From Treponemataceae bacterium (GTDB lineage: Bacteria; Spirochaetota; Spirochaetia; Treponematales; Treponemataceae): a stretch of 35,579 nucleotides of DNA. The position numbers and the translations under genes were made by a program. This document shows, piece by piece, positions 3,553 to 15,454 of the stretch. The DNA lies in NCBI GenBank assembly GCA_024680915.1, contig JAILBN010000031.1, forward strand, positions 1-35,579. Direction: 5' to 3'. The notes below the pieces were generated by a model, which was not told the origin of the DNA, ran no database searches, and worked only from the letters and a program-made list of their open reading frames with translations. Numbering within the stretch: the stretch's first letter is position 1; each line of letters begins with the position of its first letter.

Positions 3553-4449
3553 TTACGGCAGGTAATCTTGCGGATTGCGATTTTTTCCGTTCGTCCGTAT
3601 CTCAAAGTGAAGGTGAGGACCTGTTGAAAGGCCTGTCGTTCCGACGTAGCCGATAACGGTGCCAGAGCGGACATAACCTTCTGATACGGCAAACTTTGAA
3701 AGGTGGGCATAGACGCTCTGCATGTTATTCTCGTGCTGAAGAATTATAAAGTTTCCATAAGTGCTGTCATTGCTGGCGGAAAGCACTTCACCGGACTTGC
3801 AGGCATACACGGGAGTTCCTTCTGGTGCCGCAAGGTCTATTCCCTTATGGAAAAGCTCTTGTCCTGAAATTGGGCTTATTCTCATGCCGTAAGCTGATGT
3901 AAGCACACCCTCTGGCAGCGGCGAACTCATGCGTGCGTCATAGAAAAATGCGCGCTCAGTCGGCGTAAGCCTTTCTGACTGGATAAAATAATAGTTTTTG
4001 CCGTCCAGCTGGACTACAGGAGCTTCTTTATAGTCTGGAAAACGTATTTGTATGAGCTTTTCGAGAATGGATGCTGGTTCGTCTTTGACGAATAAACCCG
4101 CCGCTGCCGGAACGTACAGCTTTTTGCCGGTGATTTCCGCATCTGGTGAAGAAAAGTTATTTAGAAGGACGAGCGTTTCAATCGGTATGTTGCACCGCGC
4201 CGCCACTGTTATCAGCGTGTCTTTTTCCACCGCCGTGTATGTGTAAATGTGTGGAATTATTTTCACACCGCGAACTTCGTCCATGTAAGATTTTTCCAAG
4301 TTGTCCATGAACTGGCGGAAAAGCTCGTTGCGTGATGAAAGAGCTGGAATTGTCTGGTCTTCGCAAAACGCAGCAGAAAGAATAGTAAGCAAATAAATAG
4401 ATATTAATAGAAAAATCAGCTTTTTTGCATTGAACGGCGCATGTTTCAT
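3553..4449 (-). CDS. Secreted LysM + M23 (LytM) metallopeptidase
   Basis: A 298-residue exported protein that would cleave peptidoglycan peptides. Residues 1-29 form a signal peptide (basic start, hydrophobic core, cut near SAAFCED). A LysM-like peptidoglycan-binding segment (about 68-115) includes YTYTAVEKDTLITVAARC and ends in KKLYVPA. The M23 domain occupies about 180-298. Its zinc ligands are present: HxxxD at His201/Asp205 (HKGID) and HLH at His279/His281, with His249 in YAHL as the further catalytic histidine. It is therefore predicted active, unlike the second M23-fold protein of the window at 15486. Its ATG overlaps the stop of the upstream membrane-protein gene by 4 nt, so the two are translationally coupled. 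A terminator follows about 140 nt downstream. Confidence 0.93.
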   Translation of the reverse strand: MKHAPFNAKKLIFLLISIYLLTILSAAFCEDQTIPALSSRNELFRQFMDNLEKSYMDEVRGVKIIPHIYTYTAVEKDTLITVAARCNIPIETLVLLNNFSSPDAEITGKKLYVPAAAGLFVKDEPASILEKLIQIRFPDYKEAPVVQLDGKNYYFIQSERLTPTERAFFYDARMSSPLPEGVLTSAYGMRISPISGQELFHKGIDLAAPEGTPVYACKSGEVLSASNDSTYGNFIILQHENNMQSVYAHLSKFAVSEGYVRSGTVIGYVGTTGLSTGPHLHFEIRTNGKNRNPQDYLP

Positions 4450-4880
4450 AGCTTTATTCTGCTGCTGATGTAATTTGAAAGAGAACCTGTAAGACCGAAT
4501 GAGACGATCGATACCACAAGCCAGACTGCTCCGGCGGCGCGGTGACCTCCCATTACGCTGTTTACTGCCGCAATTATAAGGCCAATTGAAAGCACTGCAC
4601 GCAGTGTCTTGAAAACAAGCTTGAAGATTAATGTTTTTTTTGCTTTTTTATCCGGTGCTTTTTTAATGCTTGAGTAAACTTTCCGGACAATTGCATAAAG
4701 GATTAAAGCAGAGAAAAGAATCAGCACAAAAGTTGTGAATCCGTCAGGATGATTCTGAGACACGAACCATACCGGCCAGACGAATGCAAAACAGAGCGCG
4801 GTGCAGACTGCAATGCAAACAATCACAATGATCGAAGATTTGATGATACCTGTAAAACCTGAAAAAATCTGCTTTATCAT
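4446..4880 (-). CDS. Small integral membrane protein of unknown function
   Basis: 144 residues with four hydrophobic segments (about 17-38, 46-64, 92-108, 114-134) and a lysine-rich loop after the second (SIKKAPDKKAKK). I do not recognise a family. It is the first gene of a two-gene unit with the M23 peptidase, with a 4-nt stop/start overlap, which hints at an envelope role; that is context only. The ATG has no Shine-Dalgarno and lies 8 nt after a -10-like TATATA, so the message may be leaderless. Confidence 0.75.
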   Translation of the reverse strand: MIKQIFSGFTGIIKSSIIVIVCIAVCTALCFAFVWPVWFVSQNHPDGFTTFVLILFSALILYAIVRKVYSSIKKAPDKKAKKTLIFKLVFKTLRAVLSIGLIIAAVNSVMGGHRAAGAVWLVVSIVSFGLTGSLSNYISSRIKL

Positions 4881-4888
4881 GATGTCTA

Positions 4889-4917
4889 TATATAGAAAGA
4901 TATAAAAAAGCTGTCCT
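4889..4917 (-). promoter_or_regulatory. Candidate promoter of the membrane protein/M23 operon
   Basis: Minus strand AGGACA (4917-4912), 17-nt spacer, TATATA (4894-4889), then 8 nt to the ATG at 4880. Both boxes match four of six consensus positions. The -35 box lies inside the ferredoxin terminator hairpin. Confidence 0.35.
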
Positions 4918-4940
4918 AGAGAATAGCTCCGGGACAGCCT
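4903..4940 (-). terminator. Terminator of the ferredoxin gene
   Basis: On the minus strand GCTGTCC (4938-4932) pairs with GGACAGC (4916-4910) around a 15-nt loop, followed by six T. It starts about 8 nt after the ferredoxin stop codon. Confidence 0.85.
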
Positions 4941-4947
4941 TTCAAAG

Positions 4948-5118
4948 TTATGCCTCTACGATAGCTCCTGTAGGACATGCAGAAGCGCATGTTCCACAGC
5001 TAACGCATACGTCTGGGTTGACTTCGCGCTTTCCGTTGTTCTCGCTGATTGCTCCAACTGGGCATTCACCTTCGCAAGCGCCGCAGTTTACGCATGCATC
5101 TGAAATCTTGTAAGCCAT
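4948..5118 (-). CDS. 2[4Fe-4S] ferredoxin
   Basis: A 56-residue clostridial-type ferredoxin, a soluble low-potential electron carrier. Two CxxCxxCxxxCP motifs are complete: Cys9, 12, 15, 19 and Cys38, 41, 44, 48, each followed by Pro. The start at MAYKISDAC is chosen because it gives the family's usual length and has an AAAGAGG ribosome site upstream. A longer in-frame extension exists but reads as non-coding. The gene is monocistronic, with its own terminator, and is divergent from gap. Likely partners are ferredoxin-dependent fermentation enzymes elsewhere in the genome. Confidence 0.95.
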   Translation of the reverse strand: MAYKISDACVNCGACEGECPVGAISENNGKREVNPDVCVSCGTCASACPTGAIVEA

Positions 5119-5356
5119 ATCAAATACCTCTTTATGATTATTTCGGGTAAACTCCTCAGAGAAAATCCCGTAAAGGAAAAATCCTTGTAGATAAAATATC
5201 ATAGAATGAGGGCAAAAACAAGGGATTATATTTGAAAATGGAGAAAAAATTATTGAAAAGTTTTGTAAAGCGTGCAACAAATCATCATCAGGTTCTGTAT
5301 TTGAAAAATTCTGGAAGATATGATGAAACAACTTTTTGTGAAATGTTTCTATGATA

Positions 5357-5385
5357 TTGACACAAAAACTGTAAAAACATAAAAT
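5357..5385 (+). promoter_or_regulatory. Strong sigma-70 promoter of gap
   Basis: TTGACA (5357-5362), 17-nt spacer, TAAAAT (5380-5385); the start would be near 5392, giving a leader of about 26 nt with ATAGGAG (5404-5410) 7 nt before the ATG. This is the best promoter match in the window, as expected for a glycolytic gene. Confidence 0.8.
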
Positions 5386-5393
5386 TAAGATAA

Positions 5394-6416
<1,023 letters not shown>

Positions 6417-12482: not shown

Positions 12483-13682
12483 ATGTCGTACAACTCGGAA
12501 CTATTCTGTAGCGGGGGACATTTCCCCTTTCATTTCCTAGATATGCCTGAGGCTGGCTCCACTGTCCTTCTGGGCATGTCTGGTGGTGTTGATTCCACTT
12601 TGGCCGCAATGATCCTGCAGCAAAAAGGCTGTAAGGTGATCGGTGCCACCATGTCTCTTTGGAACGATGACCTGGCCTTGGAGAAAAACGTCGAAGGCTT
12701 GAGAAATTCCTGCTACGGCCCTGATGAAGTCCTTGATATACAGGCTTGTACGGAATTCTGTAAGGAGCACGGAATTGAATATCATGTGATTGATGTCAAG
12801 GAAGCCTATAAAACAAACGTGCTTGATTATTTTAAGGCAGAGTATAGGGCTGGTCGTACTCCCAATCCCTGCATAAACTGCAACCCCCTGGTGAAATTCG
12901 GAGCCATGCCGGCAGCTGCCCGGGAGCAGGGGATATCTTTCGATTACTTTTGTACCGGCCATTATGCAAGACTTGTCCGCCCGGATACTTCCGATGGGAA
13001 AGGCCCTGTGATGATTATGCAGGCTGCTGATATGACCAAAGACCAGTCCTATTTTTTATATAGGATACCTTCTTCCTTTCTGGAGAAAGTTCGTTTTCCC
13101 TTGGGAAATATGACAAAGAAAGAGGTTTTCCAGATTGCCCGCTCCATGGGGCTTGCTGCTGCCGAGAAAGCGGAAAGCCAGGATTTTGTGCCTCCTGAGT
13201 TTTTTAATTTGATTTTCTCGGACAAGCCACCCATTCCGGGAGATATAGTTGATCAGGACGGAAGGCTTTTGGGCCGCCATAAAGGAATTGAATACTATAC
13301 CATCGGGCAGAGGAGGGGACTGGGAGTCAGTGCCAGTAAGCCCCTGTATGTTAAATCCATTGATGCGGTAAGGAACAGGGTCGTCCTCTCAGACAATGAC
13401 AGTCTTCTTGAAGGCGGTCTTGTTATGAATAATTGCGTCTGGCCCGGAGACCTTGCTCCTGAAGCTGAATTCAAGGCTGACGTAAAGATTCGCCTTGCTT
13501 CCAAGCCTGTTCCTTCCACGGTCAGACTGCGGAAAGATGAAGCCGGCCAGATCATACAGGGTGAATACGAGGTCTTGTTCGATACGCCGCAGAGAGCTGT
13601 AGCCCCTGGACAGTCTGCTGTACTTTATTCAGATAACCTTATATTGGGAGGTGGGATTATTTCCCGAGCCATACATGAATGA
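12483..13682 (+). CDS. mnmA: tRNA 2-thiouridylase MnmA lacking the second catalytic cysteine
   Basis: Up to 399 residues. MnmA adenylates and thiolates U34 of Lys, Glu and Gln tRNAs. The PP-loop GMSGGVDST is at 31-39, TPNPCINCNPLVKFG (126-140) holds the first catalytic Cys and a CxxC pair (130/133), and YTIGQRRGLGV marks the C-terminal part. The usual SQDICFVP motif, which carries the second (persulfide) cysteine, here reads SQDFVP (232-237): two residues, including the Cys, are absent in frame. Other cysteines are at 77, 89 and 93. The start is uncertain: ATG 12483 has no ribosome site but lies 9 nt after TATATT; ATG 12543 (MPEAGS) gives a more usual N-terminus. nifS overlaps the end by 8 nt and nifU follows, so a dedicated sulfur supply is likely. 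Confidence 0.93.
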   Translation: MSYNSELFCSGGHFPFHFLDMPEAGSTVLLGMSGGVDSTLAAMILQQKGCKVIGATMSLWNDDLALEKNVEGLRNSCYGPDEVLDIQACTEFCKEHGIEYHVIDVKEAYKTNVLDYFKAEYRAGRTPNPCINCNPLVKFGAMPAAAREQGISFDYFCTGHYARLVRPDTSDGKGPVMIMQAADMTKDQSYFLYRIPSSFLEKVRFPLGNMTKKEVFQIARSMGLAAAEKAESQDFVPPEFFNLIFSDKPPIPGDIVDQDGRLLGRHKGIEYYTIGQRRGLGVSASKPLYVKSIDAVRNRVVLSDNDSLLEGGLVMNNCVWPGDLAPEAEFKADVKIRLASKPVPSTVRLRKDEAGQIIQGEYEVLFDTPQRAVAPGQSAVLYSDNLILGGGIISRAIHE

Positions 13683-14844
13683 CCGTATCTATTTAGATTA
13701 CAATGCCACGACCCCTCTTTCTGACGAGGTCCTTGAATTCTATAAAGAAAAGCTCTCTTCCTATGCAAATGCATCCAGTCTTCATGAGGATGGCCGCTCT
13801 GCCCGTAAGGATATAGAGAAAGCCCGGGCTCAGGTTGCGGCTCTTGTGAACGTGAATCCGGATGAGATTCTTTTTACCTCAGGTGGTTCAGAGTCCAATA
13901 ATACAGTACTCAATTCTATGATAGCCGAGTCGGAAAAACGTGGGCGGAATCTGGTGATTACTACGCAGATAGAGCACCCCTGTATCCTGGAGGCTTCGAA
14001 GCGCCTTGTCTCTTTCGGCCTGGAGGTAATTTATCTTCCTGTGGATGAATATGGCTGCGTAAAGACGGAAGAATACATGAAAGCCCTGGAAAAAAAGCCT
14101 CTTCTTGTTTCTATAATGACAGCCAATAACGAGATAGGGACCATACAGGACATAAAGAAGCTTGCGGCCCTTGCCCATGATGCGGGAGCCCTTTTCCATA
14201 CGGACGCGGTACAGGCGGCAGGCAAGATAAAAGTGGATCTTGCTGATTGGAATGTGGACTATGCATCTTTCTCCTGCCATAAAATATACGGACCTAAAGG
14301 AGTTGGGGCTCTCTATATAAAGCATGGTTCTCCCATAGAACCTTTGATAAGGGGCGGTCACCAGGAGAAGGGTCTTAGGGCAGGAACCTATAATGCACCG
14401 GCCATAGCCGCCTTCGGCAAGGCTGCCGAGCTTGCCCTTGAGGAGCTTGAATCTTACGGTGAGCGGACAAGAGAGTTGCGCAACAGGCTTCGGAACGGTC
14501 TGCTGGCTTCTATTCCGGATATAAAGATCAACGGACATCCCGCGAAGGTCCTGCCCAATACACTTGATGTCTCCTTCCCCGGGGCAGAGGGGGAATCCAT
14601 CCTGCTTCATCTTGACTTGCTTGGGGTGGACGTGTCCACTGGGTCTGCATGTGCCTCAGGAAGCCTGGAGCCTTCTCATGTTCTACTTGCTATAGGATTG
14701 GGACCAGAGCTTGCTCACGGCTCAATACGTTTCAGTCTTGGAAAGTACACTACAGAAGATGAGGTTGATTATCTTCTGAAGTATTTTCCTGGTGTTATCG
14801 AGAGATTGAGGAAAATGTCCTCTGCCTATTGTGCTGGTAAATAA
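13675..14844 (+). CDS. nifS: Cysteine desulfurase (NifS/IscS type)
   Basis: 389 residues; a PLP enzyme that takes sulfur from cysteine to give alanine and a protein persulfide. The start MNDRIYLDYNATTP matches the family's N-terminus. It overlaps the mnmA stop by 8 nt, consistent with coupling. A GTG 24 nt upstream would abut the GGGAG and seems unlikely. The PLP lysine is Lys203 in SCHKIYGPKGVG; the persulfide Cys326 sits in STGSACASG. Other family marks are TSGGSESNN and the HTDAVQAAGK strand. Located between mnmA and nifU, it probably feeds both tRNA thiolation and Fe-S assembly. Confidence 0.96.
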   Translation: MNDRIYLDYNATTPLSDEVLEFYKEKLSSYANASSLHEDGRSARKDIEKARAQVAALVNVNPDEILFTSGGSESNNTVLNSMIAESEKRGRNLVITTQIEHPCILEASKRLVSFGLEVIYLPVDEYGCVKTEEYMKALEKKPLLVSIMTANNEIGTIQDIKKLAALAHDAGALFHTDAVQAAGKIKVDLADWNVDYASFSCHKIYGPKGVGALYIKHGSPIEPLIRGGHQEKGLRAGTYNAPAIAAFGKAAELALEELESYGERTRELRNRLRNGLLASIPDIKINGHPAKVLPNTLDVSFPGAEGESILLHLDLLGVDVSTGSACASGSLEPSHVLLAIGLGPELAHGSIRFSLGKYTTEDEVDYLLKYFPGVIERLRKMSSAYCAGK

Positions 14845-14860
14845 TAAGGAGAAATATCTT

Positions 14861-15454
14861 ATGAATGAATGGATATATAGTGATGTTGTTAAAGAACATT
14901 TTATGAATCCTAAAAATGTTCTTATGGAGGAGGAATCTTCCTGGCCTTGTGACGGAAGAGGTATAGTCGGCAACCTTCAGTGTGGTGACCAGATGCTTAT
15001 TCTTATCAGGGTGAGCGAAGGAAGGATAAGTGACTGCCGTTGGAAAACCTACGGCTGTGCAAGCGCTATAGCATCTACCTCCATACTGTCCGAAGCTATA
15101 AAAGGAATGACCTTAAAGGATGCATACAGGCTTAAGCCACAGGACATTGTTGCTAAGCTTGGGGGACTCCCGGATAATAAAATCCATTGTTCAGTTTTGG
15201 GGGACAAGGCTTTGAGAGCCGCCATAGATGACTATTTGGAAAAGAATAATCTTCCTTCCCTGAAAGGGACCGAGGAGGTGGAGATAGTCTGTACCTGTCT
15301 TAATGTGACTGACAAAGATCTGGAGGAAGCCTATAAGGATGGTGCCAGAAGCTGGGAAGACCTTCAGTCCCGTACTAAGATAGGCTCAGCCTGCGGCAGC
15401 TGTAAGGAGCGGGCTATGGAGAAAATGCACGAGTTCAGCCATCTTTTTGGGTAA
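14861..15454 (+). CDS. nifU: NifU-like Fe-S scaffold (IscU domain + BFD [2Fe-2S] domain)
   Basis: 197 residues from ATG 14861, with AAGGAG upstream. The N-terminal IscU-like domain (about 1-128) has the three scaffold cysteines: Cys41 with Asp43 in CGD, Cys66 in YGCASA and Cys110 in HCS. A C-terminal BFD-like domain (about 143-190) has CTC (144/146) and CGSC (178/181) for a permanent [2Fe-2S] cluster. The third Nfu domain of classical nitrogen-fixation NifU is absent, so this is the housekeeping two-domain form. It follows nifS by 16 nt. The 31 nt to the convergent gene show no clear terminator. Confidence 0.94.
   Translation: MNEWIYSDVVKEHFMNPKNVLMEEESSWPCDGRGIVGNLQCGDQMLILIRVSEGRISDCRWKTYGCASAIASTSILSEAIKGMTLKDAYRLKPQDIVAKLGGLPDNKIHCSVLGDKALRAAIDDYLEKNNLPSLKGTEEVEIVCTCLNVTDKDLEEAYKDGARSWEDLQSRTKIGSACGSCKERAMEKMHEFSHLFG

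Follow-up and report, generated by a model that had tools for sequence, protein, structure and literature searches.

MnmA enzymes have been divided into two types, C-DxxC-C and CC-CxxC-C (PMC11784392). The C-type (CC-CxxC-C) is known from Thermus thermophilus (Shigi 2020, as reviewed in PMC8584467 and PMC11784392), and in the Thermus enzyme the CxxC pair together with a further cysteine binds a [4Fe-4S] cluster (PMC8584467). In CxxC-type MnmA, as in NcsA and TtuA, this cluster has three residue ligands, and one iron is left free for sulfide (PMC8584467; PMC10067955). The D-type (C-DxxC-C) is represented by E. coli and S. pneumoniae (2der, 2det, 2hma). Use of a cluster by E. coli MnmA is disputed, and with it whether MnmA delivers sulfur through a persulfide on Cys199 or through a [4Fe-4S] cluster (PMC11784392). 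Two MnmA entries with the S. pneumoniae sequence, 9hln and 9hlv, show both the PDVMC and the PCVMC motif (DxxC and CxxC) of one protein.

Here we describe an MnmA without Cys199, encoded on a contig of a Treponemataceae bacterium. The window, meaning the whole stretch of DNA analysed, is 35,579 nucleotides long. Judged by its motifs, the clade to which this enzyme belongs is C-CxxC without C199 and falls in neither known type. No earlier description of a C199-less MnmA was found in the literature searched; the primary papers on the types (Shigi 2020; Zhou 2021) lay outside that search, so that priority is not established.

The mnmA gene and its Cys199 site

The features of the gene are as follows.
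12483-13682, + strand: mnmA of the C199-less (SQDF) type, coding to 13679, 399 aa, with NCBIfam, Pfam, AF2 and PDB matches
12573-12596, + strand: PP-loop G-M-S-G-G-V-D-S of the ATP-pyrophosphatase (HUP) domain (PF03054), with invariant S33, D37 and S38
12711-12713, + strand: codon of Cys77 in the motif N-S-C-Y-G-P-D-E, in the loop that follows strand 2 of the PP-loop domain; the residue is the proposed third ligand of a [4Fe-4S] cluster
12870-12881, + strand: CxxC motif C130-I-N-C133 within GRTPNPCINC, invariant
13173-13193, + strand: loop E231-S-Q-D-F-V-P237, the Cys199 site of other MnmA, without Cys here (translation and alignment)

The best reading of the encoded protein, from its sequence and predicted fold, is an MnmA-type s2U34 thiolase. 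Both curated cut-offs are passed (NF001138, 346.4 bits against 284; TIGR00420, 298 bits against 237), and all three Pfam domains, HUP, PRC-barrel and C-terminal beta-barrel, are present. The AF2 model has a pLDDT of 93.4, with middling confidence in loops 61-80 and 231-240 (block means 71-80), and its best PDB match is E. coli MnmA 2det (Z 40.9, rmsd 1.8, 351 residues). The hallmark residues T158, H160 and Y161 of TGHY are invariant, as are those of SGGVDS, and the tRNA-binding domains are in place. The first 20 codons (12483-12542, M-S-Y-N...) recur only in the nearest relatives, and model confidence is low over them; beginning at 12543 would bring the gene into line with most relatives, and the true start of mnmA may lie there.

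With the C-type the window enzyme shares family, fold, the CxxC at GRTPNPCxxCN and a cysteine in the loop that follows strand 2. It differs in having no Cys at the 199 site, where its loop is 2-3 residues shorter, and in a strand-2 loop that is 3-4 residues longer and carries a single cysteine (C77-Y78) rather than a CC pair; C199-less enzymes read C-Y/F-G-P-D/G-E there, in place of the C-C-S-P of the ordinary CxxC type. The D-type agrees with the window enzyme in its three-domain architecture (Z 39-41, 37-38% identity) and in the first Cys site, but it has DxxC and keeps Cys199, whereas the window enzyme has CxxC and no Cys199. The PP-loop fold is also shared with NcsA, TtuA and LarE (6scy, 5mkq and 8cnz; Z about 12-13), which hold a [4Fe-4S] cluster on CxxC and one more Cys, an arrangement that is only proposed for the window MnmA. 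These proteins belong to other subfamilies, act on other substrates and have the third Cys elsewhere in the chain.

At the 199 site the codons start at 13173 (E231), 13176 (S232), 13179 (Q233), 13182 (D234), 13185 (F235), 13188 (V236) and 13191 (P237). E. coli MnmA reads D-S-T-G-I-C199-F at the same place; with V236 at S+4, the third Cys of the C-type is absent from the 199/200 site. The original prediction, that Cys199 is missing from an otherwise intact enzyme, was borne out when the reading frame and residues were checked, the CxxC and the fold being kept. Its description of the change as a deletion of Ile and Cys is one possible alignment. Equally, Ile may have been replaced by Phe at S+3 and Cys by Val, Tyr, Ile or Ala at S+4, with a shortening of 2-3 residues downstream, because nested relatives (below) read S-Q-D-L-C-S-G-D-Y with equal loop length.

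The E. coli C199A mutant failed to restore U34 thiolation (PMC11784392), which could suggest that the window protein is degenerate or repurposed and a 2-thiolase no more. We regard this as very improbable, since the remaining conserved blocks show no variation, enzymes of this type have been retained across phyla and at depth within one order, MnmG, the partner at the same uridine, is encoded in the source genome, and the gene is the sole mnmA of that genome (95.7% complete, draft). The single copy also led to rejection of a second mnmA covering the function. Since this sole and otherwise intact enzyme lacks Cys199, the details of its sulfur handling must depart from those known in E. coli.

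Distribution and history of C199-less MnmA

A sample of 249 MnmA sequences was drawn from a phylum-wide set, a class-wide set and one scan of GTDB genome contigs, phyla other than the window's own being covered by this single scan. No Cys is found at S+4 in 81 of them. The nearest relative (L002, 77% identical) is among those without it, and ESQDF or ESMDF occurs throughout the sampled genus and in numerous genomes from its family and order. The alignment across treponemes that was originally suggested thus places the motif in genus, family and order, and it is not a treponeme peculiarity: outside the phylum, C199-less MnmA was found in Gastranaerophilales (L121), a Desulfobacterales MAG (L122) and a rumen alphaproteobacterial MAG (L123), and further cases come from a gut bacterium (L124) and Fibrobacter (L132). 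A Cys at S+5 or S+6 was considered as a substitute and rejected, being present in only a few sequences (e.g. L025, L217 and L231). As far as these sequences indicate, the C199-less state is normal for a large MnmA clade spanning Spirochaetota, Melainabacteria, Fibrobacter, Desulfobacterales and the alphaproteobacterial MAG. Cys199 is therefore unusable as a required residue in MnmA annotation.

This distribution bears on a sequencing or assembly error at 13173-13193. Beyond the draft state of the source genome (134 contigs) nothing speaks for an error, and the motif, with conservative changes, turns up in dozens of independent genomes; the relatives refute this reading, to which we give practically no credence. 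The C199-less sequences are all of the CxxC type and none is DxxC, while Cys199 is kept in 34/34 sampled DxxC enzymes.

Some genomes carry two MnmA. A C199-less enzyme accompanies an SQDLC enzyme in G329 (L218, L237) and G361 (L211, L239) and a C199-type enzyme in G347 (L219, L271); both copies are C199-less in G006, and both are of the C199 type in G059 (L085, L086). A fusion of MnmA to an extra domain was considered for three long frames (L020, L078, L131) and rejected, as none was found in Pfam.

Trees were built with both trait regions, the C77 and C199 loops, masked. All C199-less enzymes fell within one clade (SH-aLRT 98 in one tree, 99 in another). Nested in this clade is an SQDLC subclade (support 100/100; nesting 96/85 and 96/92), and an AU test rejected a separate clade made up of the C199-less sequences (p 0.038). 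Support for the nesting is moderate, not overwhelming. Members of the subclade read S-Q-D-L-C-S/V-G-D-Y: the loop is as short as in the C199-less enzymes but has Cys again at the 199 position, and the C77 site has a much shortened loop and no Cys. The simplest history suggested by the trees would be that C199 was lost and C77 became indispensable, and that C199 was later regained and C77 lost.

Two sequences outside the C199-less clade (L266 of G244, L272 of G228) read S-Q-D-F-C and have no C77-site Cys; given their position, Phe ahead of the 199 site has a separate origin in them. Within the window's own family, two C199-type enzymes (L060 of G020, L115 of G023) group with Bacillota, which suggests what looks like gene replacement by horizontal transfer.

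Reciprocity of C77 and C199

Among the 213 CxxC-type MnmA, C199 and a C77-site Cys occur together in 92, C199 without the C77-site Cys in 40, the C77-site Cys without C199 in 81, and neither in 0. When the set was thinned to 60% identity, 8.4 sequences with neither were expected and 0 seen (Fisher p 1.7e-5), and at 50% identity 4.7 were expected and 0 seen (p 0.002); both values ignore shared descent, and C199 was perhaps lost once, so that the counts would not be independent events. Among C199-bearing sequences a Cys anywhere in that stretch of the alignment was counted for the C77 site, so the test errs on the conservative side. Two apparent cases lacking both cysteines were rejected: L127 has ESQEIC, and L251 ends just before C-Y-G-P.

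The cysteines of the window enzyme are C9, C50, C77, C89, C93, C130, C133, C157 and C318. Those listed in the original prediction (77, 89, 93, 130 and 133) are all present, but the list omitted the other four, and its suggested co-conservation extends to C77, C130 and C133 only. These three are the sole invariant cysteines in ten diverse C199-less MnmA, and among 63 thinned C199-less sequences they reach 100%, against 70% for C93, 38% for C89, 30% for C50, 27% for C157 and 5% for C318. C89 and C93 were rejected as substitutes for C199 on account of their poor conservation, as was C157 beside TGHY, found in 27% only. Among the residues of the window MnmA, no new invariant His, Asp or Cys was seen elsewhere in the C199-less set. 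C77 is thus present in 63/63 thinned C199-less sequences, in 69% of the C199-bearing and in 0% of the SQDLC subclade. A Cys at the C77 site is likewise frequent among C199-bearing and DxxC enzymes, as the first C of C-DxxC-C and CC-CxxC-C, so it has some role beyond replacing C199.

In the AF2 model the C77 loop lies in the PP-loop domain between the second strand (51-58) and helix 82-95. In the PP-loop fold the active site is lined by the loops that follow the strands. From the reciprocal pattern of C77 and C199 we think it probable that the window protein is a functional, Fe-S-dependent MnmA of the CxxC kind whose third cluster ligand has been relocated to C77. An ordinary CxxC-type enzyme holds its [4Fe-4S] cluster on the CxxC pair and Cys199, and the one iron left free can bind sulfide and deliver it to the adenylated uridine. 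In the C199-less enzyme, Cys77 of the C-Y-G-P-D-E loop would reach the cluster in Cys199's place, and the steps of ATP activation, binding of tRNA and transfer of sulfide to U34 would otherwise stay as they are. A third ligand placed in either of two loops, one of them obligatory, fits three-ligand cluster chemistry by analogy. The different sulfur route first proposed for this enzyme may accordingly be narrowed: a difference of detail from what is known in E. coli stands, while the data favour the relocated ligand C77. That the relocation was reversible, with the third Cys moving from the 199 loop to the strand-2 loop and back again in the nested subclade, is a more tentative reading of the trees, to which we give slightly less than even chances.

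The cluster might instead be held by CxxC with a third ligand other than Cys, for example Asp234 of SQD or a substrate ligand, leaving C77 a structural role. Asp99 has been proposed as a ligand in E. coli MnmA (PMC11784392), and position 234 is Asp in 98% of C199-less against 62% of C199-bearing enzymes. However, it is also Asp in all SQDLC sequences, which have Cys199, and so does not track the loss; nor would a ligand of this kind explain why the C77-site Cys is never lost without C199 and often lost with it. This arrangement is considered improbable.

Gene neighbourhood and sulfur supply

Two genes follow mnmA.
13675-14844, + strand: nifS-like cysteine desulfurase (TIGR03402, 488 bits, under the cut-off of 530.75; PF00266), whose ATG opens an 8-bp overlap with the end of mnmA
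14861-15454, + strand: NifU-like protein with an IscU-type scaffold and a BFD [2Fe-2S] domain (PF01592, PF04324)

The source genome also encodes a second, distant NifS homologue (38%), and no TusA was detectable in it. Direct supply of MnmA by NifS and NifU is plausible; in the relocated-ligand scheme the two neighbours would probably provide both sulfur and cluster without a TusA relay. B. subtilis YrvO-MnmA likewise has a dedicated desulfurase beside mnmA with no Tus relay found (PMC5372745), but in the window the desulfurase gene lies downstream of mnmA and is followed by nifU. The trio mnmA-nifS-nifU is seen again in the genus and in some of the family and is absent beside most C199-less mnmA, and C199-bearing mnmA of Bacillota also adjoin desulfurase genes. 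The initial link between the nifS-nifU operon and the variant enzyme did not survive this comparison, and the operon was rejected as a marker in favour of a local arrangement. B. subtilis MnmA keeps the Cys199 site.

The adjacent desulfurase and the absence of TusA, resembling a B. subtilis system in which two proteins suffice (PMC5372745), would also suit sulfur transfer by persulfide and without a cluster. C77, or a CxxC cysteine, would take sulfane sulfur from NifS and the other cysteines would resolve the disulfide, with C77 replacing Cys199 as persulfide carrier. Such a mechanism would account for the reciprocity of C77 and C199 too, and the E. coli cluster is itself contested (PMC11784392). 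We nevertheless consider it unlikely, since no desulfurase stands beside most C199-less mnmA, and all C199-less enzymes belong to the CxxC kind, for which [4Fe-4S] was shown in Thermus (PMC8584467). The DxxC enzymes offer the best case for a persulfide, yet C199 loss is seen in 0/34 sampled; its confinement to CxxC enzymes speaks for a cluster over a relocated persulfide carrier.

If the third ligand has indeed been relocated to C77, the supposed obligate persulfide carrier would be replaceable given three thiols around a cluster, and a cluster mechanism would be favoured over Cys199-persulfide chemistry in CxxC-type enzymes. A natural Cys199-less clade in which another Cys is indispensable makes the dispute over mechanism testable: the cluster and persulfide models predict differently for C77, and nature offers both swapped and swapped-back enzymes.

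In one further locus (L120 of G025, 4001-5575) the gene order is nifS, mnmA (C199-less, ESQNF) and an iscU-like gene. The mnmA there is a 525-residue open frame with a long low-complexity insert before C-F-G-P-N-E.
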